DNA of 64,000 bases, from assembly GCA_902556205.1 (NCBI GenBank), contig CACDVH010000001.1:186001-250000 (forward strand), given 5' to 3'. The notes beneath the pieces are model-generated. The model did not search any database. It was not told the origin of the DNA and saw only the letters and a list, made by a program, of their open reading frames with translations. This DNA is from an uncultured Gammaproteobacteria bacterium (lineage in GTDB: Bacteria; Pseudomonadota; Gammaproteobacteria; PS1; Pseudothioglobaceae). Of the stretch, positions 3,216 to 46,014 are shown piece after piece. The translations under genes were made by a program, and so were the position numbers. Numbering within the stretch: position 1 is the first letter of the stretch; every line of letters begins with the position of its first letter.

Positions 3216-4757
3216 TTAATGCTCCTGATTGAGCGCTTCCATTTTGGGAATTGTTGTTTCCCTTTTAGCAATGTAATCCAATAGCTCCTCATCTTTAGCT
3301 TGATCCAGCTTAGGCTCTTGATAATCTTCAAGTAGTTTTTTTGCCCCTTCAAGTCCTCTTTGAATTGTATCTTTACTTCCATCAGCCTGCCATTGCTCAA
3401 CAGAATTATTGTCAAATAGTTTAGGCATAAAAAAGGCCCTTTGAAAGTTCTCCATTGTATGCTGATGACCCAGGTAATGACCACCAGGACCTACATCCCT
3501 AATTGCAGCTAGGCCTTCCTCAAAGTCATCCCATCGAACTCCTTCAGCCATTCTATATCCCATTTCACACTGCTCTGCATCCACCACAAACTTTGCCATT
3601 GAGCAGTGCATTCCTGCCTCGTTCCATCCAGCAGAATGCCAGATATAGTTAGCTCCTGATAAAAGAACAGCCATCATTGTTGATGCACTCTCATATCCTG
3701 ATTGAGCATCAAATACTTTTGAGCCGCCCAAAGTATTTGAGCTTCTCCAAGGGACCTTATAATGCCTTGCCATTTGACCAATCATAAAATTCATCAAAGA
3801 GATTTCGGGCGTTCCAGCCATTGGAGCACCAGACTGCATTGATACAGTGGCTAAATAATGACCATAGATCGCAGGCGCTCCTTTTCGGATAACCTGAGTG
3901 TAAGCGAGCGCTGATAAAGCTTCCGCATTGACCTGAGCTACGGTTGGAGCAACACTTGCTGGAGTGTTGGCACCCCCAAGAACAAAAGGAGAGCAGAGCA
4001 CTGGCTGATTGTGGGCAGAAAAAACTCTCAGTGCTGAGAGCATAGTTTGATCCCAAACAAGCGGAGAGTTTCCATTGATGTTTCCAGTAACAACTGCATG
4101 ACTATCTATGAACTTTTCTCCAAAGAGAATCTTGCACATCTCAATCACATCTTCAGCATTCTTGCCACTACTAGTCATCCCCATAAAGGTTTTATCGGAG
4201 TGTTTCATGGATGAATAAGTGATTCTTAGATGCCTATGAGAAATTGCATGATCCATGGGTTCAACGATGTGATGGGCGCTTGAATGAATGGCAGGCAGCA
4301 TGTGGGAAAGCTTATGAAAATTAGCAAGGTCATCCAGCGTTGGAAGACGCCTATTATTTTCTAGATCGGTGAGGAAAGGCGCCCCTGTCATTGGGACAAA
4401 TATAGAGTTATTACCGCCAATTTCTAGCGATTTTTCAGGATCACGCGCATGCATTGTGATGCTTTCTGGGATAGACGCTATTAGTTCACGAATGAGGCCT
4501 CTATCAAAGCGAACTCGCTCACCCTCAACATCAGCACCCGCTTCTTTCCAATGCTCTAGTGCGATAGGGTCATGAAATTCAACGCCAACCTCCTCAAGAA
4601 TGGACAATGAAGCATCATCCATTTTCTCAATCTGCTCCTCATTCATCGGCTCTGTAAGAGGAATATTCCTCTTCAGAGTGGGGAGCATTTCAATTTTGAC
4701 TTTCAGACGGTCAGATCTTCTTGCTGCTCGACCAAGTCTTTCTGCAGGGGTTGACAT
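3216..4757 (-). CDS. Trimethylamine methyltransferase family (MttB-like), non-pyrrolysine
   Basis: A 513-residue protein of the MttB/COG5598 superfamily. Family-like features include the N-terminal LTEPMNEEQIEKMDDASL and EEVGVEFHDPIAL segments and the Gly/Ala-rich barrel region (GGANTPAS, TGAPFLTD). True MttB has an in-frame amber codon for pyrrolysine; this frame is read through with sense codons only. It therefore belongs with the non-Pyl group, whose characterised members (such as MtgB) demethylate quaternary amines to a corrinoid protein. No corrinoid-binding protein gene is visible here, so the methyl acceptor is unclear. It is first in a leftward operon with two SDRs and an FAD oxidoreductase. 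Confidence 0.85.
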   Translation of the reverse strand: MSTPAERLGRAARRSDRLKVKIEMLPTLKRNIPLTEPMNEEQIEKMDDASLSILEEVGVEFHDPIALEHWKEAGADVEGERVRFDRGLIRELIASIPESITMHARDPEKSLEIGGNNSIFVPMTGAPFLTDLENNRRLPTLDDLANFHKLSHMLPAIHSSAHHIVEPMDHAISHRHLRITYSSMKHSDKTFMGMTSSGKNAEDVIEMCKILFGEKFIDSHAVVTGNINGNSPLVWDQTMLSALRVFSAHNQPVLCSPFVLGGANTPASVAPTVAQVNAEALSALAYTQVIRKGAPAIYGHYLATVSMQSGAPMAGTPEISLMNFMIGQMARHYKVPWRSSNTLGGSKVFDAQSGYESASTMMAVLLSGANYIWHSAGWNEAGMHCSMAKFVVDAEQCEMGYRMAEGVRWDDFEEGLAAIRDVGPGGHYLGHQHTMENFQRAFFMPKLFDNNSVEQWQADGSKDTIQRGLEGAKKLLEDYQEPKLDQAKDEELLDYIAKRETTIPKMEALNQEH

Positions 4758-19246: not shown

Positions 19247-20452
19247 TTACTTAATAATGTTGTGCTCTGGTCCAAATGGAAACTTGGTGATGTCATAAGC
19301 GCTATCCTCAGTAAGAACCAGTACGTCATGCTCTCTGTAACCACCTGCTCCTGGTTTACCCTCTGGGATCATAATCATTGGCTCCATCGAAACAACCATA
19401 TTCTTTTCGAGGACTGTATCGATATCCTCTCGAAGCTCAACACCAGCCTCACGGCCATAGTAATGAGATAGAACTCCAAATGAGTGACCATAGCCAAATG
19501 TTCTGCTTTCAAGTAGATTATATTCTTCAAAAATTTTGTTAAGCTCAAGAGCTATATCTTTACAGGCAACCCCTGGCTTGATAAGTTTCATGCCCTCTTC
19601 ATGAACTTTTACATTGATTTCCCACAATCTCAAAGACTCATCATCAACATGATCATAAAATAAGGTTCTTTCAAGCGCAACGTAGTAACCAGCAATCATT
19701 GAAAAACAGTTAAGACTTAAGATATCCCCTTTTTGAACTTGTCTAGTAGTGACTGGGTTGTGCGCGCCATCAGTATTGATGCCTGATTGAAACCAAGTCC
19801 ATGTATCCATTAGCTCTGAGTGAGGATAGCGCTTAGCAATTTCTCGAACCATAGCTTGAGTTGAGTGAAGAGCTACTTCGTGTTCTGGCACTCCTTCTTT
19901 GATTGCCTCTACAAGAGCTGCTCCACCAATATCACAAACATTAGCACCCTGAATAATGTGAGCTATTTCTTCATCTGATTTAACTGATCGCATTTTCATG
20001 CAGTCAACAGAAATATCAATAAATTGTGCTTGATCAAGCGCAGCATGGAGTTTATCCAAGCGCTCCTTAGTAATGTGGTCAAACTCGATACCAATTTTTC
20101 CACCATTATTAACAATTTGCTGCAACGCATAAAAGAAGCTATCTTTTTGCCAGTCTGTATAGACCAGGTTGTCACCGAACGTTCTTCTGAATGGCTGACC
20201 ACCATCAATATTCGCTGTCACTGAAGTTACTTTATCTTGTGTAATGACCAGCGCATAGGGCCTGCCAAAAGAGCAGTAAAGAAAGTCACTGTAGTAATTA
20301 ATACCATGGATAGAGGTAAAGATAACGGTATCTACATTGTTTTGAGCCATATGCTCTCTTAGTTTTCTTTGTCTATTTTGGTATTCTTTATCACTAAATG
20401 TATGAGCTATATTTTCACCATTTGGAATGAGAATTGTTCTTGGCATGTTCAT
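19247..20452 (-). CDS. Creatinase (creatine amidinohydrolase)
   Basis: A 401-residue pita-bread-fold enzyme hydrolysing creatine to sarcosine and urea. It follows Pseudomonas putida creatinase closely along its whole length. The substrate residues F62 and R64 (YCSFGRPYAL) and the catalytic set H231, E261, R334 and E357 correspond, with a one-residue offset, to H232, E262, R335 and E358 of that enzyme. A metal-dependent aminopeptidase of the same fold would show five metal ligands instead. AGGAG precedes the start codon. It lies downstream of the oxoprolinase-DUF1989-EamA genes and feeds the sarcosine oxidase encoded at 28.4-33.6 kb. Confidence 0.93.
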   Translation of the reverse strand: MNMPRTILIPNGENIAHTFSDKEYQNRQRKLREHMAQNNVDTVIFTSIHGINYYSDFLYCSFGRPYALVITQDKVTSVTANIDGGQPFRRTFGDNLVYTDWQKDSFFYALQQIVNNGGKIGIEFDHITKERLDKLHAALDQAQFIDISVDCMKMRSVKSDEEIAHIIQGANVCDIGGAALVEAIKEGVPEHEVALHSTQAMVREIAKRYPHSELMDTWTWFQSGINTDGAHNPVTTRQVQKGDILSLNCFSMIAGYYVALERTLFYDHVDDESLRLWEINVKVHEEGMKLIKPGVACKDIALELNKIFEEYNLLESRTFGYGHSFGVLSHYYGREAGVELREDIDTVLEKNMVVSMEPMIMIPEGKPGAGGYREHDVLVLTEDSAYDITKFPFGPEHNIIK

Positions 20453-20561
20453 GGTAACTCCTGTATCTGCGTTAATTTGTGCGGATGTTAGACAATTTCT
20501 CTAAGTATAGCAAGCTTTTTTTATACAGAGCTATGTTTAAATCTATAGATGATAAGAACTT

Positions 20562-21440
20562 TTAGATAACTCTTTCCTTAGGCTTATTCAATATATTTTC
20601 ACGAACAAAAGTATAAACACCAGATGCTACAATGATAGCTGCACCGAGGAGCGTCAACATATCCGGTCTTTCAGAGAGGACAATAATGGATAGAAGCATG
20701 GCAAAAACAAGTCTTGAATATCTAAAAGGCGATATAACTGACATCTCACCAGTTCTTGCTGCAATAACAATTGAGTAATATGCAATAACACCGAATGCTG
20801 ATGCACCGGCAAAAAATAAAATGTCTTTGGAGCTAGGCACTAACATCTCAGAGCTAAACGGTATTAACATAATGCCAGAGACTCCAAAGGCCAAGAAAGC
20901 ATAAAGAGAGATGGTCACTGATGGTAATTTCACTTCAATAGCGCGTGTTGCAAGGTCTCTTCCAGCTAAAAAAGTTGCTCCAAGAAGTGCAAAAATAGAA
21001 GCTGGCATAAAGCTTCCAAAGCCAGGTCTAAGAATCAATAAAACACCAATAAAGCCAACAAAAACTGCTGTCCATCTACGCCAACCAACTTTTTCTTTGA
21101 AGAAGATGGCCGCTCCAATTGTGACTAATAAGGGCATGACCTGAATGATTGCAGAGGCAGAAGATAAAGGTGTTAGGGCAATTGCAAGAACAAAAAATAA
21201 AGCTCCAAAAAGTTCACATAGGGTTCGTATAATGACCGGAGTAGTCAATAAACCCTGATGAAAAATTGGAGCTTTTGTTAAAAGTCCAATGATGAGAAAT
21301 ATAATGCTTCCACTGAATCCAAGAATGATGATAATTTCAGAAATTGGAAGATTTTCTGAGAGCATTTTAATAAATAAATCCTCACACGCAAAGCCTGCCA
21401 TAGCGAGAATCATAAATAAAATGCCCTTTAAATTATCCAT
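20562..21440 (-). CDS. EamA/DMT-family transporter
   Basis: A 292-residue inner-membrane protein with about ten hydrophobic helices arranged as two EamA repeats, as in drug/metabolite transporters (RhaT/YdcZ-like). It lies between the DUF1989 gene (29 bp upstream) and creatinase (109 bp downstream) on one strand. It is therefore a candidate carrier for creatine, creatinine or a product of their breakdown. DMT proteins are often exporters and the direction cannot be told from sequence. Confidence 0.85.
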   Translation of the reverse strand: MDNLKGILFMILAMAGFACEDLFIKMLSENLPISEIIIILGFSGSIIFLIIGLLTKAPIFHQGLLTTPVIIRTLCELFGALFFVLAIALTPLSSASAIIQVMPLLVTIGAAIFFKEKVGWRRWTAVFVGFIGVLLILRPGFGSFMPASIFALLGATFLAGRDLATRAIEVKLPSVTISLYAFLAFGVSGIMLIPFSSEMLVPSSKDILFFAGASAFGVIAYYSIVIAARTGEMSVISPFRYSRLVFAMLLSIIVLSERPDMLTLLGAAIIVASGVYTFVRENILNKPKERVI

Positions 21441-21469
21441 CTCAATTCATTCTCATTTAAAGTTGAATT

Positions 21470-22333
21470 TTAACTGGAGCCGTGATTCCTCGAGTACTTA
21501 TTTGATGCTTGGGGGGACCATTGCTTTAGAGCGCTTTCAGCTGGTTTATAAATGTCTACTTGAAGTGGGTAACATGCGGCTGAATCACTTGAGTGACTGG
21601 AGCTACAATCACCCCCTGGACATGCTGATAATCCACAGAGAAGATCAATTTCTGCAAAGAATTCTATATAGTCATCGGGACGAACTGGACTAGCTTTCAT
21701 AAAATACTGATGTGTATCTTTTGTAAAACCCGTGCACATAAAGACATTAAGTACATCATGAACGTGATGCTCAATCTCATTAATGGGTTTTTGTTGCTGA
21801 CCTGAAAGCGCTCTGCATAAGTTAGAATGACAACAATAATGATACTCCTCATTATTTAATGCAACATGAGTATAAGGATCGCAACGAGTTCCAATGACAT
21901 CATGAACACTTCCACCATCATCATCGTACCCATACCAGTCAAGAGTGTCATGTGTAATGGTAGCCAGAGGCCTTAAAAATGGTAGGTTTGAATAAAGTCT
22001 ATCGCCAGTGCTTACATGCGTTCCATATAACGCTCGTGTCTTTCCACTAAAGAATCGTTCATTGATATTATTTTTGTTCCATAAATTTAAATCACCTACC
22101 TGTGGACCCTCACGACTAACAATTCGAAAAAAATATCCAGCAGGCACCTCAAAAGTTCTAGCATCTCTAGGAGGAATAATGATAGATTCTGTGAGATTCA
22201 TATTCTCACAAGCAGATTTATAAAAAACTGCATCATAGGCTGGGAGATTATCAATAGGATAAGATATCACTGGCTTAATTGAGCGCCTAGTTTCAGCATC
22301 ATTGGGTTCTGGACTTAAGTTAATTACTTTCAT
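21470..22333 (-). CDS. DUF1989 / urea-carboxylase-associated family protein
   Basis: A 287-residue DUF1989 protein. Family segments include IIIPPRDARTFEVPAGYFFRI (51-71), GPQVGDLNLW and the Cys/His-rich parts: H106, HYCCHSNLC (165-173) and CPGGDC (238-243), which probably bind metal. Related proteins (CgdA/CgdB, formerly urea-carboxylase-associated proteins) act as carboxyguanidine deiminase in guanidine degradation. Placed between a fused hydantoinase/oxoprolinase and an EamA-creatinase pair, it may deiminate a guanidino compound such as creatine or creatinine; this is inference. A strong AGGAG precedes the start. Confidence 0.82.
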   Translation of the reverse strand: MKVINLSPEPNDAETRRSIKPVISYPIDNLPAYDAVFYKSACENMNLTESIIIPPRDARTFEVPAGYFFRIVSREGPQVGDLNLWNKNNINERFFSGKTRALYGTHVSTGDRLYSNLPFLRPLATITHDTLDWYGYDDDGGSVHDVIGTRCDPYTHVALNNEEYHYCCHSNLCRALSGQQQKPINEIEHHVHDVLNVFMCTGFTKDTHQYFMKASPVRPDDYIEFFAEIDLLCGLSACPGGDCSSSHSSDSAACYPLQVDIYKPAESALKQWSPQASNKYSRNHGSS

Positions 22334-22369
22334 AGTGGTCTCCTATTAATAGAGTCATTTTAATTGTCC

Positions 22370-25300
22370 CTAGGTTAGGTGGTTTTTTCCAAAACCTCCT
22401 CCTCCAGGCGTCTTTAGTACAAAAAGATCATTTTCACTCACTTCAATTTGTCCTTTAGTGCCAAGATCTGTCACACTTTCATCAGAATGAATGACATAGT
22501 TTTCACCAAGAGCACCTGATTCTCCTCCAGATAACCCGTAGGGCGGTATTTTTCTGTGACCTGCAATGACATTTACCGTCATGGATTCAAGAAACCGCAG
22601 CCTTCGGTCAACCCCATTTCCACCAGTATGTAAACCTTTACCACCTGAATTTTTTCTGATGCTAAAGGATTCCAGTTTAACGGGGAAGCGCCATTCCAAA
22701 ACCTCTGGATCAGTGAGTCTTGAGTTAGTCATATGAGTGTGAACTGCGCTACAGCCTGGCTGATTGATACTGGCCCCTGAACCTCCGCAGATGGTTTCGT
22801 AATTTTGAACTTTGTCATTACCCCAGATAAAGTTATTCATTGTTCCCTGTGATGCTGCAAAATTACCTAGAGCACCAAGTAAAGTATCAACAATGTATTG
22901 AGATGTTTCAACATTACCTGAAAAAACTGCAGCCGGGTATTCAGGATTAATCATTGAGTTATTCGGAATAATCAAATTTAAGGGTTTTAAGCAGCCTGAG
23001 TTCAGAGGGATATCATCATCGACTAGGCAGCGAAAAACATAGAGCACTGCAGCATAACAAATTGCACTCGGTGCATTATAGTTTCCTGGATGTTGATCAC
23101 TGGTGCCCGTGAAATCAATGGTTGCTGAGCGTTCCAATTTATCCACACTAATAGATACACACACCTTATGACCATCATCCATTTGATAGGTAAAGCTTGA
23201 GTCACTTAGAACATCCAAAACTCGTCGAACGGATTCCTCAGCGTTATCTTGAACGTGACCCATGTATGCATGAACAACATCAATTCCATAGTGCTCGATC
23301 ACTTTTATAAGCTCTTGAGATCCTTTTTCTGCGGCCGCAACTTGGGCTTTTAAATCAGCTATATTTTGATTAACATTTCTTGCAGGATGCTCTGCTTGAG
23401 CTAATAGGGCATTAATTTCATCTTCAAGGAATACTCCCTTAGAGACAATGGTAAAGTTATCTATTAAAACTCCCTCCTCTTTAATATGAGTTGAATTCGC
23501 TGGGGCAGAACCTGGAACCGTACCGCCTATGTCAGCATGATGACCCCTCGTAGCAACATAGAAAATCACATTCTCATTGCCATCGTCGAATACCGGCTTT
23601 ATTAGAGTGATATCTGGTAAGTGAGTGCCGCCATTGTATGGAGCATTAATAAGAAAGGCGTCACCAGAATTCATAGTATGTGAATTTTCACGAATAATGG
23701 TTTTAATAGATTCACTCATTGAGCCCAGGTGAACTGGCACATGGGGCGCATTTGCAACAAGCTCTCCCTCGGGAGAAAAAATAGCACAGGAGAAGTCTAA
23801 ACGCTCTTTGATGTTCACTGATGAGGCCGTATTCTCAAGCACCATGCCCATTTGTTCTGCAACGTTCATAAATAAGTTATTAAATATTTCTAACATGATA
23901 GGGTCCACGCTTGTTCCTATAGCGTTAGATCTTAAAACTTTTTGATTACGAGTTAGGATTAAATCATTACTCTCTTTGAGCATTGCCTCCCAGCCAGGCT
24001 CTATGATGAAGGTTGAAGTTGGCTCAATAATGACAGCAGGGCCAGAGATTTTTTCATTCGGCTTGATATTATCTCGATTATAAAAAATGGTTTTTTCCAG
24101 TTTCCCATTTATAAATACCTCTTGAGTTGATAGAGAGTCAGTTTTTAGTCTATTGTGGGTATTTACCTCCCAATCAAATGACTCACTTTGACATGATACC
24201 TCGGTCTGGGCTGATTCAATGATGATAGGTTTTTCTGGTGAGATAAATCCAAATCTTGCTTTATGAGTAGCCTCAAAACTCGATTTCATTGAAGGAAAAT
24301 TTGTAAATTTAACGGGCAAGGATGTGTCAGAGTCTTTGTAGCGCAGATGAACTCGATCAGTATATTGAAATAGACTCTCATTAAGGTTTTGTGTAATCAA
24401 ATCTTTTCGCCCATCAGACTGAAGACCTTTAAAGCATTTACTTAAGTAGTCTATTAGGCCAGAATCAAGAGGTAATTCAACTGCTGCCTCATTGATTGTT
24501 CTGCTATCTGCAAGACCAATTCCATAGGCAGATAAAACACCTGCATAGGGATGAAGGTGAATTTTTTTGATTCCCAGTTTATCGGCTACCATGCAAGCGT
24601 GTTGACCGCCAGCTCCGCCAAAACAAGAGAGCGTATAGTCGCTGACATCATAGCCACGCTGAACTGAGATTTTCTTGATCGCATTTGACATGCTATCAAC
24701 CGCAATGGATAAAAAGCCCTCTGCGACCTTATGCGGGGTAACAGTTTTCTTGATGCTTAATGAAATATCATTGGCCAGAGACTTAAATTTTCTTTGAACA
24801 ATTTTGAGGTCAAGTTTTTGATTGCCATTAGGGCCAAAAACTTTAGGAAAGTAATCTGGATTTAGTTTGCCTAGCATCACGTTACAATCTGTAACTGTAA
24901 GCGGGCCACCATTACGATAACAAGCTGGTCCAGGAAAAGCGCCAGCGGATTCTGGGCCAACGCGATACCTAGACCCATCGAAATGCAGAATAGAGCCCCC
25001 ACCAGCAGCAACAGTATTGATTAACATCATTGGCGACTTTAGCCTGACGCCTGTTACCTCTGTCTCAAGAGTTCTCTCGTATTCTCCATTATAGTGGCAG
25101 ACATCGGTTGAGGTCCCTCCCATATCAAAACCTATCAGCTTACTTAGTCCAATTTTTTCTCCAGTTTTGACCATTCCAACCACGCCACCTGCAGGCCCTG
25201 AAAGAATCGCATCCTTGCCTTGAAAATAGTTGGCATCAGTAAGGCCTCCATTCGATTGCATGAACATTAATCGGCCAAAGTCTGATTGACTAGGTCCAAG

Positions 25301-26002
25301 TTCATTTCTAACTTTATTAACATAACGACGCAGGATAGGCGATAAGTAGGCATCAACTACTGTTGTATCTCCGCGAGGAATGATTTTCATAAGTGGACTT
25401 ATTTGATGACTAACTGAAATTTGTGTAAATCCAATTTCTTTAGCAATGAGGCTAATTTGCTTTTCATGCTCTTGATGCCTGTATCCATGAAGCAAAACAA
25501 TTGCAATAGATCTAAAGCCCTTAATAAAGGCCTCGGTTAATACTTTTCTTGTATCTATAGTGTTAAGCTGTTTTAATACCTTCCCACCCTTATCAACTCT
25601 TTCATCAATCTCAACCACTTCAGAATATAGCATTTCTGGGAGTTGGATATCTAAAGAAAATAAGTTTGGCCTTTGCTGGTATCCAATTCTCAAAATATCT
25701 GCAAAGCCTTTTGTGATTGCTAGCAGTGTTTTCTCTCCTTTTCTTTCAAGGAGTGCATTGGTAGCCACTGTAGTGCCCATTTTTATAGACTCAATTTGCT
25801 GAATTGGAATAGACTCTTTTTCTTTCAATGACAACAAGTCTTTTATACCCTGAATTGCAGCATCTTCATAATGATGAGGATTTTCAGATAGCAGTTTGTG
25901 ACTTAAGAGTTCTCCATTTGGATTTTTACTGATGATATCAGTAAATGTTCCTCCCCTATCAATCCAGAACTGCCACTTGGGTTTTTCATTTAAATTCATC
26001 AA
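22370..26002 (-). CDS. Fused hydantoinase/5-oxoprolinase (HyuA-HyuB)
   Basis: A 1210-residue ATP-dependent cyclic-amide hydrolase. The N-terminal HyuA half has FWIDRGGTFTDI (nucleotide-binding), GTTVATNALLERKG and FDMGGTSTDV. The C-terminal HyuB half begins about residue 690 (DPIMLEIFNNLFMNVAEQMG). The single-chain arrangement and the starting motif are those of 5-oxoprolinase, which opens 5-oxoproline to glutamate; two-subunit relatives open N-methylhydantoin on the creatinine route to N-carbamoylsarcosine. The creatinase and DUF1989 neighbours favour a creatinine-related role, and the fused architecture favours oxoproline. It is first gene of its operon, 37 bp before the DUF1989 gene. Confidence 0.88.
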   Translation of the reverse strand: MMNLNEKPKWQFWIDRGGTFTDIISKNPNGELLSHKLLSENPHHYEDAAIQGIKDLLSLKEKESIPIQQIESIKMGTTVATNALLERKGEKTLLAITKGFADILRIGYQQRPNLFSLDIQLPEMLYSEVVEIDERVDKGGKVLKQLNTIDTRKVLTEAFIKGFRSIAIVLLHGYRHQEHEKQISLIAKEIGFTQISVSHQISPLMKIIPRGDTTVVDAYLSPILRRYVNKVRNELGPSQSDFGRLMFMQSNGGLTDANYFQGKDAILSGPAGGVVGMVKTGEKIGLSKLIGFDMGGTSTDVCHYNGEYERTLETEVTGVRLKSPMMLINTVAAGGGSILHFDGSRYRVGPESAGAFPGPACYRNGGPLTVTDCNVMLGKLNPDYFPKVFGPNGNQKLDLKIVQRKFKSLANDISLSIKKTVTPHKVAEGFLSIAVDSMSNAIKKISVQRGYDVSDYTLSCFGGAGGQHACMVADKLGIKKIHLHPYAGVLSAYGIGLADSRTINEAAVELPLDSGLIDYLSKCFKGLQSDGRKDLITQNLNESLFQYTDRVHLRYKDSDTSLPVKFTNFPSMKSSFEATHKARFGFISPEKPIIIESAQTEVSCQSESFDWEVNTHNRLKTDSLSTQEVFINGKLEKTIFYNRDNIKPNEKISGPAVIIEPTSTFIIEPGWEAMLKESNDLILTRNQKVLRSNAIGTSVDPIMLEIFNNLFMNVAEQMGMVLENTASSVNIKERLDFSCAIFSPEGELVANAPHVPVHLGSMSESIKTIIRENSHTMNSGDAFLINAPYNGGTHLPDITLIKPVFDDGNENVIFYVATRGHHADIGGTVPGSAPANSTHIKEEGVLIDNFTIVSKGVFLEDEINALLAQAEHPARNVNQNIADLKAQVAAAEKGSQELIKVIEHYGIDVVHAYMGHVQDNAEESVRRVLDVLSDSSFTYQMDDGHKVCVSISVDKLERSATIDFTGTSDQHPGNYNAPSAICYAAVLYVFRCLVDDDIPLNSGCLKPLNLIIPNNSMINPEYPAAVFSGNVETSQYIVDTLLGALGNFAASQGTMNNFIWGNDKVQNYETICGGSGASINQPGCSAVHTHMTNSRLTDPEVLEWRFPVKLESFSIRKNSGGKGLHTGGNGVDRRLRFLESMTVNVIAGHRKIPPYGLSGGESGALGENYVIHSDESVTDLGTKGQIEVSENDLFVLKTPGGGGFGKNHLT

Positions 26003-26087
26003 AAACTTTAATCAATAGACTCTATAGATGAATTATATAGGCAAATAAATTATTATGATTTTCTAAACTTGAGTATTAAAAAAATGA

Positions 26088-26116
26088 TTGACATCTAATT
26101 ATTTTAGGAACAAAAT
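26088..26116 (+). promoter_or_regulatory. Candidate sigma-70 promoter upstream of the second EamA gene
   Basis: A consensus -35 TTGACA (26088-26093) is followed after 17 bp by CAAAAT (26111-26116), a four-of-six match to the -10 box. It faces the EamA gene at 26159, which has GAGGGG (26145-26150) as its ribosome site. The leftward hyuAB promoter must lie in the same 156-bp spacer. Confidence 0.55.
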
Positions 26117-26158
26117 GCCAGAATTAGTTGTAGCCATATATTACGAGGGGTTGATAGG

Positions 26159-27055
26159 ATGAAGAATAGCTATTTACTAGGTTTTTTTCTTGTTGTTGTG
26201 AGCGGGGTAATCTGGAGCTTTGGAGCACCACTAGTAAGATATCTCGAGGATGCTGAAACCTTTAGGCTTCAATATCTGCTTTATAGAGGTTTAATCATTA
26301 CCTCAGTCATACTCATATTTGTTCTTTTTAGGGAAGGGAGGAACTTTTTCCAGACCTTTAAGCGAATAGATTCGTGGAGCCTTATAGGAAGTCTTGTGAT
26401 GTCTGTTACATTTTTTGGATGGATTTATGCATTGACTACAACTACAGTTGCTATCACTTTGCTCATGCTTGCTGTGTCTCCAGTCTTGTCAGCATTTCTA
26501 GGCTACCTCATTCTTGGTGAGAGGTTGAGTAAAAGTACACTCATTAACATGTTAATTGTGGCAATTGGCATTATGATCATGGTTTGGGACACTGAAAAAT
26601 CAGCAACGATAATCGGGGTTCTTTATGGGTTCTTTGTGGCTCTAGGTTTTGCAATTTATACTATCACTATTCGAAAAAATCCTGAAGTTCCCAAGTTATT
26701 AACACCTGCTCTTGCTGGTTTCTTTTGTATGGTCTGGGCAACAATTCTTATTGTTGTAACTGGTGTTAGCTTTGAGATGCCAACAGCCAATATTGGGATT
26801 AGCATGACTCATGGCCTGGTTGTTGGCATGGGTCTAATATTGTATGGCCTGGGAGCGAAGTACCTTCCTAGTGGAGAGCTTGTGATGCTCTCCCTTTTAG
26901 AAGTCGTGCTGGGTATTTTTTGGGCATGGCTTCCGGCTCTAGGAATTCATGAGGTTCCATCAAGAAATACTTTAATCGGAGGATTAGCAATTTTATTTGC
27001 AATCATTATGCAGGGAGTCTATGCCAGAAAAAAACACCTCATTCCAATGCCATAA
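26159..27055 (+). CDS. EamA/DMT-family transporter
   Basis: A 298-residue integral membrane protein with about ten helices and two EamA repeats. The second repeat begins near IGVLYGFFVALGFAIY. It differs clearly in sequence from the EamA protein at 20562-21440. It is divergent from the oxoprolinase operon and precedes the reductase-sarcosine oxidase genes by 206 bp, so a role in moving methylated amino compounds is possible but unproven. A candidate promoter with a consensus -35 box lies 43 bp upstream. Confidence 0.85.
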   Translation: MKNSYLLGFFLVVVSGVIWSFGAPLVRYLEDAETFRLQYLLYRGLIITSVILIFVLFREGRNFFQTFKRIDSWSLIGSLVMSVTFFGWIYALTTTTVAITLLMLAVSPVLSAFLGYLILGERLSKSTLINMLIVAIGIMIMVWDTEKSATIIGVLYGFFVALGFAIYTITIRKNPEVPKLLTPALAGFFCMVWATILIVVTGVSFEMPTANIGISMTHGLVVGMGLILYGLGAKYLPSGELVMLSLLEVVLGIFWAWLPALGIHEVPSRNTLIGGLAILFAIIMQGVYARKKHLIPMP

Positions 27056-27180
27056 ACTCCTTTATTAACAGTATTTTTTGTTTTAGTTGAAAGATTGCTT
27101 TAGCTGGCTTTAATTGTTAAAATTCTCACTTTTTTATCTAATTGTAATCCACAGTTTTATTTGATATATTTGCACTTTTT

Positions 27181-27195
27181 GTAATTAATAATTAC
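27181..27195. promoter_or_regulatory. 15-bp inverted repeat upstream of the reductase-sox genes
   Basis: GTAATT-AAT-AATTAC forms a 6-bp-arm inverted repeat in the 206-bp space before the reductase gene. It is a candidate operator for the sarcosine-oxidase operon. AT-rich DNA gives such repeats by chance, so confidence is limited. The rest of the spacer shows nothing else recognisable. Confidence 0.35.
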
Positions 27196-27261
27196 TTACT
27201 AGAGCCAGTTTTAATAAACTCTGATGCTACAATTGAAAGTTTTTGAATGGCCATAAGCTGA

Positions 27262-28368
27262 ATGAACGAATTAGTCTTTCCAAATATTAACATTGAGAAA
27301 CTTACCCGGTGGACAGGCGATGTATCACCGCTCGAGTGCATTGGTATAAAAGATGAAACCCATAATGTCAAAAGTTTCACCTTTAAGTCAACGAAAGATG
27401 CCTGGTTTCAATTTTACCCAGGTCAGCATACTACCCTTTTTTTGAAAATTGATGGTAATGATGTGATGCGTACTTACACTATTGCATCAAGTCCTACTCG
27501 GCCTAACACGATTACCATAACCAATAAAAGAATGGCAGAGGGTGTTGTGACAAACTGGATGCACGATAGTTTGAAAGTTGGTGATTGCGTTGAGGCTCTG
27601 GATATTGGAGGCTCTTTCAGTGTAGCTTTAGATAAGCCAAAGCCCAAAATTTTATTTTTATCAGGTGGGAGTGGAATAACTCCAATGTTATCCATGACAA
27701 GATATTTTTGTGATCTTTCAATGGATGTAGATATTGCCTTTGTTCACAATGCGCAATCTGAGAAAGATTTAATTTCAAAAAATGAGCTTGATTTTTATGA
27801 GTCAACTCAAAGTGATTTTAAAAGACACTTTGTTTGTGATATTGGGAGTGAGGGCTGGCTCGGACCAACAGGTTTTTTGAGCCATGAGATGCTTGTTGAT
27901 CTCGTCCCCGATTTTGCTGAACGAGAGATCTATTGCTGCGGTCCAGAGCCTTACATGCAGAATGTAAAAAAAATACTCTCGTTAACTGATTATGATATGA
28001 ATTTCTATCATCAAGAAAGCTTTGATATTGAGAGTTCAACGGCCCAAAAAAATATGGCAATCAATGCTGATTTGCCAGAACATAAAGTTACAGAAAGTGA
28101 AATAAATGAATATAATGTCACCCTGAAAAAGAGCGGTGATGTTTTGCCTTGTGGGAGCAATACAAGCATCCTAGTTTCTATTCAAAAACAAGGTATTACC
28201 GTTCCATTTGCCTGCTCACAAGGATTGTGTGGAACGTGTCGGACTAAAATGCTTGATGGAACTGTTGAAATGGATGCTCAGGGTGGACTGTTAAAGTCTC
28301 ATGAACAAGAAGGATATATTTTGACTTGTTGCTCCTATCCAACGAGTGATATTGTTCTTGATTTATAG
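27262..28368 (+). CDS. GbcB-like ferredoxin-NAD(P) reductase with C-terminal 2Fe-2S domain
   Basis: A 368-residue electron-transfer protein. The FAD-binding barrel (FYPGQHTTLFL, MRTYTIASSP at about residues 52-80), an NAD domain (FLSGGSGITPMLSM, CCGPEPYM) and a C-terminal plant-type ferredoxin domain (PFACSQGLCGTCRTKM with a later TCCSYP) are in the order used by glycine-betaine monooxygenase reductase GbcB and Hcr-like proteins. Such proteins feed electrons from NAD(P)H to a Rieske oxygenase. No Rieske oxygenase gene is in the window, so its partner is elsewhere. It is 20 bp before soxB. Confidence 0.87.
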   Translation: MNELVFPNINIEKLTRWTGDVSPLECIGIKDETHNVKSFTFKSTKDAWFQFYPGQHTTLFLKIDGNDVMRTYTIASSPTRPNTITITNKRMAEGVVTNWMHDSLKVGDCVEALDIGGSFSVALDKPKPKILFLSGGSGITPMLSMTRYFCDLSMDVDIAFVHNAQSEKDLISKNELDFYESTQSDFKRHFVCDIGSEGWLGPTGFLSHEMLVDLVPDFAEREIYCCGPEPYMQNVKKILSLTDYDMNFYHQESFDIESSTAQKNMAINADLPEHKVTESEINEYNVTLKKSGDVLPCGSNTSILVSIQKQGITVPFACSQGLCGTCRTKMLDGTVEMDAQGGLLKSHEQEGYILTCCSYPTSDIVLDL

Positions 28369-28388
28369 ATTATTAGTTGAGTTAACTT

Positions 28389-29639
28389 ATGCAAAAAAAA
28401 TATTCATGGTATTCGTTATTGAAGGCAGGATTAGCTAACCAAGATTGGGATAAAGCCATACCCTCATCAAAGCCCAAATCAAAATATGATGTCATCATTA
28501 TTGGTGGTGGTGGTCATGGCCTTGCTACAGCTTATTACCTGGCTAAAGAGTGCGGCATTACGAATGTAGCTGTAGTTGAAAAGGGCTATATTGGTGGGGG
28601 AAATACTGGAAGAAATACAACAATCATTAGGTCTAATTATCTAAGAGATGAGGCATCTAGTCTTTATGAGCATTCAATGAGACTATGGGAAGGGTTGAGT
28701 GAAGATTTAAATTTCAATGTCATGTTTAGCCAGAGAGGGGTTTACAATCTAGGACACACTCTGCAAGACATGAGGGATATTGAAAGAAGAGTTAATGCAA
28801 ATGTATTAAATGGTGTCGATGCTGTAGTTGTTGATCACAAAGAAATCAAAGAGCAAATTCCAATAATCAATACATCAAAAAATGTTAGATATCCAATTAT
28901 GGGCGCTTCTTTTCAGGCGCGTGCTGGAGTTGCCCGACATGATGGAGTCGCCTGGGGCTTTGCTCGTGCTGCTTCAAACCTTGGCGTGGATATTATTCAA
29001 AACTGTGAAGTTATTGATATTGAGGTTGAAGAGGGTCGCGTCAAAGGGGTAAAAACTACTCAGGGCGATATAATGGCAGACCGAGTTGGATGCGTTAGTG
29101 CAGGCCACTCATCCGTTATAGCCAGAATGGCTGGATTGAGGTTGCCTGTAGAAAGTCATCCGTTGCAGGCTTTCGTTTCGGAGGCAATGAAGCCTATTCT
29201 TCATACTGTTGTCATGTCTAATGCAGTTCATGGCTATGTTAGTCAAAGCGATAAGGGTGACCTGGTTATTGGTGCGGGTATTGATGGCTACAATTCTTAT
29301 GCTCAACGCGGCAGCGCTAAAATAGTAGAGCATTGCGCTGCGGCAATTCTTGAATTATTTCCCATTTTTTCGCGTGTTCGAATGAATCGACAGTGGGGCG
29401 GAATTGTGGATGTCTGTCCTGATGCGTGTCCTGTCATTAGTCCAACAAAGATTGAGGGCCTTTATTTTAACTGTGGCTGGGGAACGGGCGGTTTTAAGGC
29501 CACTCCTGGTTCAGGCAATGTTTTTGCTCATACTATTGCTCAAGACAAGCAGCACGATTTAGCTGTTCCATTTCATATTGATCGCTTTACAACGGGTGCT
29601 CTTATTGATGAGCATGGCGCCGCTGGCGTAGCTCACTAG
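28389..29639 (+). CDS. soxB: Sarcosine oxidase beta subunit
   Basis: A 416-residue flavoprotein subunit containing the sarcosine-oxidising active site. It has the FAD motif [16 protein letters not shown] (about 36-51) and [11 protein letters not shown]. The His in [10 protein letters not shown] (H184) corresponds to the residue that binds FMN covalently in characterised heterotetrameric enzymes. It converts sarcosine to glycine, and the C1 unit is passed to tetrahydrofolate in the alpha subunit with H2O2 formed. It is first in the soxBDAG set and closely follows the reductase gene. Confidence 0.95.
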
Positions 29640-29658
29640 TTTATTTGAAGGTAATATT

Positions 29659-29943
29659 ATGTTTTCAATTCATTGTCCATATTGCAAAGAACCTAGAGAC
29701 CAGAATGAATTTTCACCTGCTGGGGAAGCTTTTATAGCTAGACCTGAAAATCCTGAAGCCTTAAGTGATGAACAATGGGCTGATTATGTATTTTATAGAA
29801 CTAATTTAAAGGGCGACCACTGGGAGCAATGGGTTCATACCTCTGGCTGTCGAAAATATTTTTTGGTAAAAAGATCTACCATTAGTCATGAGGTTATTGA
29901 AGTAGCGACTTTTGAAGAAATAGATAGTGAGAACGCATCATGA
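29659..29943 (+). CDS. soxD: Sarcosine oxidase delta subunit
   Basis: A 94-residue zinc-binding subunit of heterotetrameric sarcosine oxidase. The N-terminal HCPYCKEPRDQNEF carries the CxxC pair (C6, C9), with His and Cys of HTSGCRKYF completing the zinc site. Size and position between soxB and soxA are as usual. Its end overlaps the soxA start by 4 bp (ATGA), implying translational coupling. Confidence 0.95.
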   Translation: MFSIHCPYCKEPRDQNEFSPAGEAFIARPENPEALSDEQWADYVFYRTNLKGDHWEQWVHTSGCRKYFLVKRSTISHEVIEVATFEEIDSENAS

Positions 29944-32900
29944 GATTAGAGAAGCATGCAAGCAGCCTTGTGGATTACACCCAGCCTTTAAGTTTTGTAT
30001 TTAACAATAAAGCCTATAAGGGCTTCAAGGGCGATACCTTAGCATCAGCCCTTGTTGCTAATGATGTTTTATATTACGCACGAAGTTTTAAATATGGACG
30101 AAAGAGAGGCATTATTGGGGCTGGAGTTGAGGAGCCAAATGCCCTAGTTTCACTTGAAATTGGAGGTAGATACACTCCTAATATGAAGGCAACAGAAATC
30201 ATGCTTTATGACGGGCTGAGTGCAGTCAGCTCAAGCAACCCACATTCGATTGACTTTCGTGCCATGATTAAGCCCCTGCATCGATTTATGCCAGCAGGCT
30301 TCTACTATAAAACCTTCATTAAGCAGAAAGTTTGGTCAATTGTTGAGGATCGCCTAAGGTCCTTATCGGGTTTTTCAAAAGCACCTTTGGTGACTGATGA
30401 GGATGTTTATGACCATATTTTTCAACATACAGAGGTACTTGTAATTGGCGGTGGTGTTGCAGGGATGAGCGCAGCTCTTGAGGTTCTTTCTGGTTCAAAA
30501 GTTGCTAGAGTTATCTTGGTGGATGAAAGAGAAAATTTAGGCGGTGAACTAACCAATGAGTTTACAACTGATCAAACAGCAACTCTTTGGTTTCAAGAAG
30601 CTAAAGGTAAGCTTCAAAAGTATAGAGATGAAGATAACTCAAGGCTAAAAATTTTAACATCTGCCACTGCTTATGCCTGGTATGACCATAACTACATAGA
30701 GGTACTGCAGACTCATGGTACTGGCCAATCAATGATTCATGAGAGTGGTCAAACTGCTAGAAAAGTACTGCATAAGATTAGGACAAAAGAGGTCATTCTT
30801 GCTACTGGAGCGCATGAGCGTCCAATGCTATTTGAGACCAATGACTTGGCAAATATTATGCTTAGTCAATCTGTCAGACGCTACATAAACGAGTTCAATG
30901 TTGTTGCAGGCAAAGAAATTGTTTTGTATGGAAATAATGACAGTATTTACAACACCGCAATTGATTTAAGTAAACATAATATTAAGTCTAAGGTGGTTGA
31001 TGTTAGAGCATCAGGCAATGAAAGTGAAATTATTTTAGAGGCAAAAAAAATAGGAATAGAGGTTTTTCAAGGCTTTGCTGTTCTTAAAGCAAAAGGTAAG
31101 AGTCGAGTTACTGGCGTTGAAATCTCTCAGGTGGAGATGCAAGCCAAGCCGCCTCATTGGAAATCTAAATGGAGAATAACTGGAGATACTAAAACTATAA
31201 ATTGTGATCTTTTAGCAACTTCTGGAGGATTTAATCCAGTTGTTCATTTGGACTGTCATTGCGGTGGTAAGACATATTTTGATGAAACATCACAATCATT
31301 TCTTCCTCAAAAAGAGCGAAAGGAAAGACAAGTATGTGGCGCTGTAAATTCTGTTGGTTTTTGGAAAGATGCAATGATTGATGCAAAAAATAAAGCACAA
31401 TTAACGCTTTCATCTCTGGGTGAAGAGGTTGAAGTGACTCCACAAAAACTGACAAACCGAAGTCATAATTATTTTAATGTTGATCAGTTCTTTACCCCAC
31501 TTGAAATTCTTAATAAGCCAAAAGTCTTTATCGATCTTCAAAACGATGTCACTACTCTGGATGTAGCACTCTCGATTAGAGAGGGATACCAATCAATAGA
31601 GCATATCAAGAGATATACTGCAATGGGCTTTGGAACAGATCAAGGTAAAACTGGAAACATTAATGGTATTGCTGTTGCAGCTGAATTTCTTGATGCACCT
31701 ATGTCAGAGGTCGGTACAACGACATTCAGACCAGCATACACAGGTGTGGATTTTGGAGCGATGGCTGGAAGAGAAGTTGGAGATTTTTTTGATCCACAAA
31801 GGTTCACTACAATTCATGACTCTCACGTTAATAGCGGCGCTAAATTTGAAGTAGTTGGGCAGTGGTACAGGCCATGGTACTATCCAAAGAATGGTGAAGA
31901 TATTCATCAGGCTGTTAACAGAGAGTGTCGCGCTGTTAGAAGCTCGCTTGGAATGATGGATGCTTCAACCCTTGGAAAGATTGATATTCAAGGTAAGGAT
32001 GCAAGAGAATTTTTATCAAGAGTCTACACTAATGCATGGATGAAATTAGCGCCTGGAAGTTGTCGCTATGGCCTTATGTGTAATGAGAAAGGGATGATTA
32101 TTGATGACGGTGTTTCAACTTGCATTAATGATCATCATTTTATTATGACAACTACAACCGGAGGTGCTGCAAGCGTTTATTCAACACTAGAAATGTGGCT
32201 TCAAACTGAGTGGAGTCATTTGGATGTGCATCTGAGTAGTGTCACAGATCAGTTTTCAACAGTTGCAGTGGTCGGCCCTAATGCGCGCAAATTGATGAAC
32301 AAGTTATGTCCAGATGTTGATTTTGACAGTAAAAGCTTTAAGTTTATGCAATGGCGCCCCGGAACCGTATGTGGCGTTGAAGCAAGAATTATGAGAATTA
32401 GTTTCTCCGGTGAACTTGCATATGAAATAAATATTGCAGCAAACTATGGGCGTTTTATATGGGATGAGGTTGCCCGTGAAGGTCAAGAATGGAACATCAC
32501 TCCATATGGAACTGAATCAATGCATGTTCTGCGGGCGGAAAAAGGCTTCATCATTGTTGGCCAGGATACCGACGGCTCAATGACACCGATGGATGTTAAT
32601 ATGAACTGGATTCTAGCAAAAAATAAGCCTTTCTCTTATATTGGGCGTCGTTCATTTAGCGTATCTGCACTTAATTCCAATGATAGATTGCAGTTAGTAG
32701 GCCTCCTCACCAAGGATGATCAGGTTGTTCTTCCTGAGGGAGCCCATATTATAAGTAACAAAGGTATCTCTATTGGCTACGTAACTTCAAGCTATTACAG
32801 TCCAGTACTTGGAAGATCAATTGCATTAGCCCAACTAAAAGGTGGACTTTCAAAAATGTCTGAGACTGTCCTCGTGAAGATTGTTCAAGAAAAGCAGGGT

Positions 32901-32978
32901 CTCAAAGAGATACCTTGTGAAGTTTCAAGTAGTGTCTTTTATGATATCAATGGTGAAAAGGTAGACGGCAATGAGTAA
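29940..32978 (+). CDS. soxA: Sarcosine oxidase alpha subunit
   Basis: A 1012-residue subunit. The N-terminal segment (about 1-100) is the 2Fe-2S-like domain of this family (KGFKGDTLASALVAND), followed by an NAD/FAD-binding domain with VLVIGGGVAGMSAALEV (about 165-181). A C-terminal half (about 610-1010) is homologous to GcvT/dimethylglycine dehydrogenase and transfers the methylene group to tetrahydrofolate. The length is normal. It overlaps soxD by 4 bp and soxG by 8 bp. Together the products make glycine and methylene-THF from sarcosine. Confidence 0.95.
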   Translation: MRLEKHASSLVDYTQPLSFVFNNKAYKGFKGDTLASALVANDVLYYARSFKYGRKRGIIGAGVEEPNALVSLEIGGRYTPNMKATEIMLYDGLSAVSSSNPHSIDFRAMIKPLHRFMPAGFYYKTFIKQKVWSIVEDRLRSLSGFSKAPLVTDEDVYDHIFQHTEVLVIGGGVAGMSAALEVLSGSKVARVILVDERENLGGELTNEFTTDQTATLWFQEAKGKLQKYRDEDNSRLKILTSATAYAWYDHNYIEVLQTHGTGQSMIHESGQTARKVLHKIRTKEVILATGAHERPMLFETNDLANIMLSQSVRRYINEFNVVAGKEIVLYGNNDSIYNTAIDLSKHNIKSKVVDVRASGNESEIILEAKKIGIEVFQGFAVLKAKGKSRVTGVEISQVEMQAKPPHWKSKWRITGDTKTINCDLLATSGGFNPVVHLDCHCGGKTYFDETSQSFLPQKERKERQVCGAVNSVGFWKDAMIDAKNKAQLTLSSLGEEVEVTPQKLTNRSHNYFNVDQFFTPLEILNKPKVFIDLQNDVTTLDVALSIREGYQSIEHIKRYTAMGFGTDQGKTGNINGIAVAAEFLDAPMSEVGTTTFRPAYTGVDFGAMAGREVGDFFDPQRFTTIHDSHVNSGAKFEVVGQWYRPWYYPKNGEDIHQAVNRECRAVRSSLGMMDASTLGKIDIQGKDAREFLSRVYTNAWMKLAPGSCRYGLMCNEKGMIIDDGVSTCINDHHFIMTTTTGGAASVYSTLEMWLQTEWSHLDVHLSSVTDQFSTVAVVGPNARKLMNKLCPDVDFDSKSFKFMQWRPGTVCGVEARIMRISFSGELAYEINIAANYGRFIWDEVAREGQEWNITPYGTESMHVLRAEKGFIIVGQDTDGSMTPMDVNMNWILAKNKPFSYIGRRSFSVSALNSNDRLQLVGLLTKDDQVVLPEGAHIISNKGISIGYVTSSYYSPVLGRSIALAQLKGGLSKMSETVLVKIVQEKQGLKEIPCEVSSSVFYDINGEKVDGNE

Positions 32979-33561
32979 AGATAGTAATTTTGAAAATATG
33001 GAGCCAGAATCTAGGTCAACTTTTAAACCTCTTGTGGATGAAGCAGGTTTTTTGGTGGATCAAGATGATATTAGTTGTCAAGAAATCACGGGCAATTCTC
33101 TGCTCATTTTAAGGGTAACTAAAGACTCAAAGAAAAATATCAAAGCTGCAAAAGATATATTCAATATTAAGCTTCCAGAGCCACTTCAGATGACTATGAG
33201 AGATTCCAGTTTAAAATGCTTTTGGGTCAGCCCAGATGAATTTTGGGTTTCTCTAGGTGCTCAGCAAATGCTAGAAATTGAAGAGAAGTCTAATAACCTT
33301 CCGAATGGTGTTTCTATCACTAATAATTCAGCAGCATATGGCACTCTTGAGTTTACTGGACATAAAACTATTGAGTTATTAAGTCGATGGATGAGTTATG
33401 ATCTTGAGGCGGCTCTTCCCGATGGAAAGGCTGTTTCAACTACTTTCGGACAAGCGCCAGTTTTTGTGTATCGTGAAAAAAAGAATATATTTATGATGGT
33501 TAGGCATTCATTTTCTCACTATGTCGCTGGACTAATCAAGGACAGCGCTAAAAGAATTTAG
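32971..33561 (+). CDS. soxG: Sarcosine oxidase gamma subunit
   Basis: A 196-residue structural subunit of heterotetrameric sarcosine oxidase. It has the conserved FWVSPDEFWVSLGAQQ-like segment and the C-terminal FGQAPVFVYR and MVRHSFSHYVAG motifs. The 8-bp overlap with soxA and the sox order support the call; gamma subunits are the least conserved of the four. It has no separate catalytic role. Confidence 0.9.
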   Translation: MSKDSNFENMEPESRSTFKPLVDEAGFLVDQDDISCQEITGNSLLILRVTKDSKKNIKAAKDIFNIKLPEPLQMTMRDSSLKCFWVSPDEFWVSLGAQQMLEIEEKSNNLPNGVSITNNSAAYGTLEFTGHKTIELLSRWMSYDLEAALPDGKAVSTTFGQAPVFVYREKKNIFMMVRHSFSHYVAGLIKDSAKRI

Positions 33562-33588: not shown

Positions 33589-34173
33589 ATGGATAAAGTC
33601 AATTTTATTAGCATGGAGGATGGCACAGCTGAAGAGTATGCCTTTCTTGATAAACTAGAATCTCAATACATTCACGACTTGCCCTCTAGACTCATTGATG
33701 CCTTAAAGGCTTTGAATTCCAGCCTATCAGGCTATCAAATTAGTCGATTAGAACACTCACTTCAAGGAGCAACTAGAGCACTAATAGCTAAGGAAGACTT
33801 AGAAATGGTGATGGCTGTTTTATTTCATGATATTGGCGACTCACTAGCGCCCTATTCTCACTCTGAAATGGCGGCTGCTATTCTTAGGCCATTTGTTTCA
33901 GAGAAAATCTATTGGATTATTAAGCATCATGGCGTATTTCAAATGTACTACTATGCTCATCACTCTGGTGGCGATAGAAATGCAAGAGAGATGTATATTG
34001 ATAACCCATGGTATGCTGATGCAGTTAGATTCTGTCATGATTATGATCAAAACTGCTTTGATCCCAATTATGATTCGAAGCCATTAGAGTTCTTTACCCC
34101 TATGATTCATGAGTTTTTTTCAACGCCTTTGCTTGATGATCCAGAGAGACTCGCTAGGTATGGCAAGGAATAA
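33589..34173 (+). CDS. HD-domain protein, candidate PhnZ/TmpB-type diiron oxygenase
   Basis: A 194-residue single-domain HD protein. The metal ligands appear as H56 (RLEHSLQ), H80-D81 (LFHDIGD), H91 (YSHSEM), H114 (KHHGVF) and an Asp in RFCHDYDQN. The 24-residue step from the first His to HD, the EHSLQ sequence and the two extra His resemble mixed-valence diiron HD oxygenases such as PhnZ and TmpB, as I recall them, more than simple HD phosphatases. TmpB makes glycine betaine from an aminophosphonate, which would fit the location 27 bp after soxG. The substrate is not established; an ordinary HD hydrolase is the alternative. Confidence 0.7.
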   Translation: MDKVNFISMEDGTAEEYAFLDKLESQYIHDLPSRLIDALKALNSSLSGYQISRLEHSLQGATRALIAKEDLEMVMAVLFHDIGDSLAPYSHSEMAAAILRPFVSEKIYWIIKHHGVFQMYYYAHHSGGDRNAREMYIDNPWYADAVRFCHDYDQNCFDPNYDSKPLEFFTPMIHEFFSTPLLDDPERLARYGKE

Positions 34174-45189: not shown

Positions 45190-46014
45190 ATGATTCAAGC
45201 TACCATAACAGGGGATCAACAGAATGACTTTCGAAATAATGGGTTTTTGACTTTAGATAAATTTATCAATTTGGAGTTGCTTGATGAATTGAAAAAAAGA
45301 ATTGATCTTCTATTTAAGGGTGAGTTTGAAACTGGAATTGAGCCAGACGAATGGAACTGGAGAAGTGATAGAGACCCTAGCGATGTTACTAGACAAATTT
45401 GTAATGCTTGGAAATCAGATAATCTTATCAAGGAAGTGGTTTGCAGTAAAGTTATCGGACAAATTGTTTCTGAATTGATGGGTTGGAGAGGTGCAAGACT
45501 CATACAAGATAATATTTTATGGAAGCCTCCTCAAGGTAAGCCTTTGGCGTATCACCAAGATGCAGCATATATAGATTGGATAGTGCCTCAGAGTATGGCT
45601 ACCTGTTGGATTCCACTTGATAATATTCTTCAGGAAAATGGAGCACTAGAATTTGCAGTTGAGTCACATCTATGGGAGTTATGCCCGCCATCGGATAGCT
45701 TTCATGCTCCTGAAGATTACAAGGAAGAGCTTAATCGTTATTTAAAAAATAATAACAAGAAGCTTGAGACCTATGCAGTTGATGTTCCTGCGGGCGGAGT
45801 TTCATTTCACCATGGTATGACTTGGCATGGTTCAGGAGTGAACCTCACAAGTCAGGATCGAAGGGCGATTGTTGCGCATTGCGTTCCAAATGATGCTCAG
45901 TTTCATGATTCAAATTGTGGGGGTACTGGAAAAATTTACAGAAAATTTAAATTAAATGATAGCAATAAGCTAGATGATAGTTTTTTTCCTTTACTATGGG
46001 AAAATAATGATTAA
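45190..46014 (+). CDS. Phytanoyl-CoA dioxygenase (PhyH) family Fe(II)/2-oxoglutarate oxygenase
   Basis: A 274-residue non-heme iron oxygenase. The HxD iron motif is YHQDAAYIDW and the distal His lies in MTWHGSGVN, with an Arg-containing RRAIVAH segment that would hold 2-oxoglutarate. Family substrates include ectoine, phosphonates, mitomycin-type metabolites and acyl-CoAs, so the substrate is unassigned. It is downstream of the hydroxyacid dehydrogenase gene; an oxygenase hydroxylating a substrate that the dehydrogenase then oxidises is a reasonable guess. Confidence 0.85.
   Translation: MIQATITGDQQNDFRNNGFLTLDKFINLELLDELKKRIDLLFKGEFETGIEPDEWNWRSDRDPSDVTRQICNAWKSDNLIKEVVCSKVIGQIVSELMGWRGARLIQDNILWKPPQGKPLAYHQDAAYIDWIVPQSMATCWIPLDNILQENGALEFAVESHLWELCPPSDSFHAPEDYKEELNRYLKNNNKKLETYAVDVPAGGVSFHHGMTWHGSGVNLTSQDRRAIVAHCVPNDAQFHDSNCGGTGKIYRKFKLNDSNKLDDSFFPLLWENND

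Follow-up and report, generated by a model that had tools for sequence, protein, structure and literature searches.

The HD gene and its neighborhood

The window, as the whole 64,000-nucleotide stretch analyzed here is called, belongs to the genome of an uncultured gammaproteobacterium (G000). This genome is 1.65 Mb in size and 91.8% complete and, among named organisms, is most closely related to Candidatus Thioglobus and SUP05-type gammaproteobacteria. The gene of interest is an intact open reading frame with an ATG start, which codes for an HD-domain protein (Table 1). It had been described as following soxG and is indeed positioned directly 3' of the soxBDAG operon, 27 bp from soxG and 16 bp before dsbB. 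Elsewhere in the genus, soxG and the HD gene are separated by 16 - 33 bp. The gap in the window contains no promoter- or terminator-like site beyond the shuffled expectation. The entire neighborhood, comprising dsbB, cfa, thiE and lptC, is kept across the genus, so that the adjacency to soxG counts as one observation and not as 20. SoxG itself is strongly divergent, yet few genes of the locus are as conserved as soxB.

Positions 19247 - 33561 of the window have the appearance of a creatine-to-glycine island, containing a creatinase, a DUF1989 protein, a fused hydantoinase A/B, a GbcB-like reductase and soxBDAG. The creatinase can feed sarcosine to SoxBDAG without the HD protein and, thus, the link between the HD gene and the sox genes could be merely regulatory or incidental. 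The window also carries a homolog of MttB (3216 - 4757). Four further MttB-family methyltransferases are found elsewhere in the genome, but there is a single corrinoid protein. Five MttB proteins in a genome of this size suggest a specialist on methylated amines.

Table 1. Features of the HD gene and its surroundings, in window coordinates
Feature	Position	Strand	Basis
Creatinase (creatine amidinohydrolase), likely sarcosine source	19247..20452	-	PDB 1chm, E 2e-187
Ferredoxin-type reductase, closest to glycine betaine monooxygenase reductase GbcB	27262..28368	+	NF058606 334.6 bits (cut-off 500)
soxB, sarcosine oxidase beta subunit	28389..29639	+	TIGR01373 676.8 bits (cut-off 529)
soxD, sarcosine oxidase delta subunit, 94 aa	29659..29943	+	Translation; conserved 94-aa neighbor in 19 loci
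soxA, sarcosine oxidase alpha subunit	29940..32978	+	TIGR01372 1130 bits (cut-off 1164)
soxG, divergent sarcosine oxidase gamma subunit	32971..33561	+	Pfam SoxG 28.4 bits (cut-off 21); TIGR01375 51.3 bits (cut-off 144)
HD-domain protein, predicted diiron oxygenase of an unnamed family, 194 aa	33589..34173	+	ORF, profile, model, tree
Codons 46-49 (L-S-G-Y), place of the YxxE lid of PhnZ/TmpB; motif absent	33724..33735	+	Alignments
H56, predicted iron ligand (PhnZ H34)	33754..33756	+	Invariant; aligned
H80-D81-I-G-D84; H80 and D81 predicted ligands; D84 at the fifth-His place (HDxGH) of the Phn-HD family	33826..33840	+	Invariant; aligned
H91, predicted iron ligand (PhnZ H80)	33859..33861	+	Invariant; aligned
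H114-G-V-F-Q118; H114 predicted ligand (PhnZ H104); Q118 at the place of PhnZ K108	33928..33942	+	Invariant; aligned
D153, distal Asp, predicted iron ligand (PhnZ D161)	34045..34047	+	Invariant; aligned

Metal-ligand pattern and predicted fold

The preliminary description listed H56, H80-D81, H91, H114 and a distal aspartate as a diiron-oxygenase ligand pattern, together with an EHSLQ segment placed 24 residues ahead of the HD pair. All of these elements are present. EHSLQ occupies residues 55 - 59, H56 and H80 are 24 residues apart, and a profile alignment with TmpB-like proteins identifies the distal aspartate as D153. In the profile-profile comparison with the TmpB-like proteins (98.9%), the six ligands are all in register. 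Each of the six is invariant among the aligned sequences of the window protein and its close relatives (86/86) and also in the distant members of the family, which are 39 - 51% identical (48/48). The pattern is therefore not a product of chance.

The ligand motif alone does not decide between an oxygenase and a hydrolase. The H...HD...H...H...D set is also that of dinuclear hydrolases, e.g. the Ap4A hydrolase YqeK, and recurs in an extended form in HD-GYP enzymes (PMC8177086). Public annotation calls the relatives of the window protein 'HD domain-containing protein' or 'phosphohydrolase'. On these grounds the protein might be taken for an HD phosphohydrolase with two metals, e.g. a nucleotidase. 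The fold and profile searches, however, lead to oxygenases. The AlphaFold (AF2) model of the window protein (pLDDT 94.5, pTM 0.89) was compared with the Protein Data Bank using Foldseek, which returned PhnZ (E 1.9e-6), TmpB (2.4e-5) and then myo-inositol oxygenase, MIOX (E 0.11, probability 1.00), with moderate TM-scores of 0.62 - 0.69. There was no significant HD hydrolase in this search, the best such entries having E-values of about 1 or worse and probabilities of at most 0.54. A profile of 62 family members, run against all PDB sequences, found only PhnZ (4.5e-9) and TmpB (4.5e-7). MIOX did not appear in the sequence searches, and no solved HD hydrolase was matched significantly; on the hydrolase side, the protein matches only the general Pfam HD model (28.7 bits, cut-off 22).

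An oxygenase is the best reading of the protein, because the model matches PhnZ, TmpB and MIOX and no significant HD hydrolase. The grouping with HD-domain diiron oxygenases, apart from HD hydrolases, is well supported by sequence profile and predicted fold. A placement among HD phosphohydrolases, the outcome that the preliminary description regarded as contrary to its proposal, was not seen. A hydrolase also fits poorly with the recurrent tandem of HD and 2-oxoglutarate oxygenase genes described below, and is a very improbable explanation. As of 2020, a review of the superfamily listed only three HD-domain oxygenase activities (PMC8177086), and the characterized enzymes concerned are the very three that the model matches.

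Differences from PhnZ, TmpB and MIOX

PhnZ, the 2-amino-1-hydroxyethylphosphonate dioxygenase (PDB 4MLM/4N71), and the window protein have the same fold, as detected by Foldseek, the same six ligands, the EHSLQ segment and the 24-residue spacing between the first histidine and the HD pair. Their sequences are only about 24% identical, however, and two segments of the window protein are shorter than in PhnZ: the stretch from HD to H91 lacks 11 residues, and that from H114 to D153 lacks 18. Four elements have been replaced. The YxxE motif (Y24/E27) is substituted by L46/Y49, and nearly all family members have Tyr or Phe at the place of the glutamate. The fifth histidine (PhnZ H62) has become D84, which is invariant in the family. 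A lysine and an arginine are common to PhnZ, TmpB and the TmpB-like proteins: the lysine, K108 of PhnZ, is an invariant glutamine, Q118, in the window family, and the arginine, R158, corresponds to a variable position occupied by H150 in the window protein and often by Glu in others. We take K108 and R158 to be residues that contact the phosphonate in the PhnZ structures. Since these positive charges are replaced, a phosphonate dianion is unlikely to be the substrate. As to the other two elements, YxxE forms the lid loop of PhnZ and TmpB (PMC8177086), and the fifth conserved histidine is the mark of the Phn-HD family TIGR03276 (PMC11203657).

TmpB, the (R)-1-hydroxy-2-trimethylaminoethylphosphonate oxygenase (PDB 6NPA), resembles the window protein in its fold and ligands and, like the relatives of the window protein, is paired with a TmpA/gamma-butyrobetaine hydroxylase (GBBH)-like enzyme and betaine metabolism. 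It differs in the same residues as PhnZ does. The window protein scores 21.6 bits against the TmpB model NF049941 (cut-off 300) and 31.3 bits against the Phn-HD model TIGR03276 (cut-off 214.6). The latter model is matched weakly by all 62 relatives, none of which comes closer in kind. In the tree, a long branch (support 100/99) separates the window family from a group made up of PhnZ, TmpB and a TmpB-like paralog encoded elsewhere in the genome of the window.

The paralog belongs to a TmpA/TmpB-like pair at G000:C3:59187-60837 (L122:9187-10837). The pair adjoins a dimethylglycine-dehydrogenase-like gene and a homocysteine methyltransferase gene, and a PhyH gene is nearby. Its hydroxylase passes the cut-offs for both TmpA and gamma-butyrobetaine dioxygenase. 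The TmpB-like protein (G000:C3:59187-59750) reaches 257 bits against the TmpB cut-off of 300, and the pair is consequently called TmpAB-like rather than proven TmpAB.

These data bear on the possibility that the window protein cleaves phosphonates in the manner of PhnZ and TmpB and thereby releases glycine betaine from hydroxylated trimethylaminoethylphosphonate. Its nearest solved structures are PhnZ and TmpB, and the gene in front of some relatives' HD genes is TmpA-like (E 2.3e-56; 347.5 bits against the TmpA model). Nevertheless, the missed cut-offs, the separate branch, the replacement of YxxE, the fifth histidine, the lysine and the arginine, and the existence of another TmpAB-like pair in the genome speak against the protein being PhnZ or TmpB itself, and there is no phosphonate gene among the recurrent annotated neighbors of the family. 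A phosphonate-cleaving function is thus quite unlikely, and the replaced residues indicate that the substrate of the window family is probably not a phosphonate. Of the likeness to PhnZ and TmpB proposed earlier, the grouping with HD diiron oxygenases stands, but the identity with either enzyme does not.

MIOX (PDB 2HUO), the third family in the fold search, cleaves a C-C bond. It has the same ligand pattern and, like the window protein, lacks YxxE. Its K127 presumably lies at the HD+3 place, which is D84 in the window protein. The match is weak, with 13% identity over the Foldseek alignment, and there are no inositol genes near the HD gene; membership in the MIOX family was rejected on these grounds and on the outcome of the sequence searches. 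A further uncharacterized HD protein, the putative PhnHD of Achromobacter, has also been proposed to be a diiron oxygenase, but, unlike the window family, it keeps the fifth histidine of TIGR03276 and is encoded within a phosphonatase cluster (PMC11203657).

2-Oxoglutarate oxygenases upstream of the HD genes

Among 128 loci with 1600 neighboring genes, 20 genes for 2-oxoglutarate oxygenases were found using search models built only from 2-oxoglutarate oxygenases that do not adjoin an HD gene. Seventeen of the 20 are immediately upstream of the HD gene and on the same strand; the two genes overlap by as much as 14 bp or are separated by at most 77 bp, and up to five lineages are represented. 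The chance of such a placement is about 8% for each gene. If at most seven lineages are counted, the chance of at least five being adjacent is about 6e-5 by our own calculation. The arrangement mirrors the PhnY-PhnZ and TmpA-TmpB tandems, and a tandem pathway of a hydroxylase and an HD oxygenase is moderately supported.

The partner oxygenases differ. One type is GBBH/TmpA-like, of the TauD group (c31-type), and is found in 10 loci of a gammaproteobacterial clade. A second type is also GBBH/TmpA-like, is about 28% identical to the first and occurs in two loci, one of them on the Pseudomonas aeruginosa plasmid NZ_CP115240. PhyH-like partners lie directly upstream of the HD genes in loci L174, L186, L188, L077 and L081; those of the first three loci show a weak relationship to chlorinating enzymes. 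The partner hydroxylases show only partial conservation of the aromatic cage residues for trimethylammonium, and a substrate other than a quaternary amine is thus possible. Several long HD-containing open reading frames were also seen (compare the HD-hydroxylase fusion PhoF), many of which are likely to be long frames in GC-rich DNA.

The window locus itself differs from a TmpA/TmpB-type operon in that soxG, and not the gene of a 2-oxoglutarate hydroxylase, is upstream of the HD gene; no 2-oxoglutarate oxygenase gene is adjacent. A search for an unlinked c31-type TauD hydroxylase in the genus of the window gave only TmpA/TMLD-like paralogs of about 30% identity. The PhyH gene at 45190, which the preliminary description had offered as a possible partner with the TmpA fold, is real (Pfam 89.9 bits), but its product shares only about 24% identity with the PhyH proteins adjoining HD genes of the family, and it was rejected as a partner. 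Moreover, TmpA is not a PhyH protein, its relatives being those of the TauD/gamma-butyrobetaine hydroxylase group. Another PhyH protein of the same genome (G000:C17:15382-15867, L119), 38% identical to the HD-adjacent ones, is a better lead. An orphan TMLD-like gene (L123:5999-7102) was likewise dismissed, as it is about 25% identical to c31 and has no linkage.

N-methyl contexts and distribution of the family

The clade around the window protein consists of 51 rows (support 99/97) and unites three gene contexts and three rows without context. In the genus of the window, the HD gene follows soxBDAG. In the second context, a MttB homolog is succeeded by a dimethylglycine-dehydrogenase-like gene and then directly by the HD gene. 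In the third, the TauD-HD tandem is accompanied by MtgC-like, DUF1638, MTHFR-like, MttB and RACo-like genes, a set that corresponds to the glycine betaine demethylation genes of Ruegeria, homologs of which have been reported in SUP05 (Mausz 2025, PMC12478193). The sox and dimethylglycine dehydrogenase contexts and most of the TauD contexts fall within this clade. N-methyl contexts recur in more distant members, namely in NZ_CP115240, L166 and L167. The plasmid locus contains genes for a choline-binding protein, a choline dehydrogenase and an aldehyde dehydrogenase. The link to betaine or amine metabolism, originally drawn from the sarcosine oxidase genes next door, gains support from the relatives' contexts rather than from the window alone.

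About 40 of the 48 distant members have no N-methyl context and no common neighbor. One HD clade (L047, L053, L057 and relatives) lies between the housekeeping genes coaD and rsmD, without metabolic neighbors. The N-methyl link could accordingly be incidental, with the various clades of a diiron oxygenase family acting on unrelated hydroxylated substrates that are supplied by different 2-oxoglutarate oxygenases. The diversity of the partners (two TauD kinds and several PhyH kinds), the many members lacking a recognizable context, and the class II aldolase, fatty-acid hydroxylase-like and other genes adjoining some members are all in keeping with this possibility. It is nonetheless rather unlikely, given that three different N-methyl contexts occupy neighboring branches in the clade of the window protein and that such contexts reappear in the distant members.

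The family is present in 59 of 399 sampled Pseudomonadota genomes (about 15%). Within the taxonomic family of the window, it occurs only in the genus of the window and in a single genome from a different genus. These genomes also carry the TmpB-like paralog, except for a few that have only one of the two. A literature search found no paper describing this HD family. The family is real, widespread and undescribed, and its members are predicted diiron oxygenases.

Proposed function

The reading that we consider probable is that the window protein is a diiron HD-domain oxygenase of the PhnZ/TmpB/MIOX kind, belonging to a separate, unnamed family, and that it acts after a hydroxylase on a hydroxylated N-methyl compound, which is probably not a phosphonate. 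The 2-oxoglutarate oxygenase, encoded directly upstream in the relatives, probably installs the hydroxyl group first. Two irons are predicted to be bound through H56, H80, D81, H91, H114 and D153. By analogy with PhnZ, TmpB and MIOX, the substrate hydroxyl would be coordinated to one iron, while O2 would be activated at the other. The C-H hydrogen of the hydroxyl-bearing carbon would then be removed and the bond to the neighboring atom cleaved, giving a carboxylate. The probable product is an N-methylated glycine, namely betaine, dimethylglycine or sarcosine, which would pass to the demethylating enzymes encoded next door. In the window, the receiving enzyme would be the sarcosine oxidase SoxBDAG.

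The simplest candidate substrate is beta-alanine betaine, the carboxylate analog of trimethylaminoethylphosphonate, and carnitine-type compounds are an alternative. A more specific proposal is tentative and less likely than not: the new family of HD diiron oxygenases, following a 2-oxoglutarate hydroxylase, might cleave the C-C rather than the C-P bond of hydroxylated N-methylated compounds, e.g. hydroxylated beta-alanine betaine or carnitine, so that glycine betaine or a different N-methylglycine becomes available for demethylation.

Taking such relatives for phosphonate enzymes could affect the counts of phnZ in ocean data. If the tandem is true, the paired hydroxylase offers a direct way to find the substrate, and the family would provide an unrecognized O2-dependent entry to the betaine and N-methylglycine metabolism of abundant marine bacteria.
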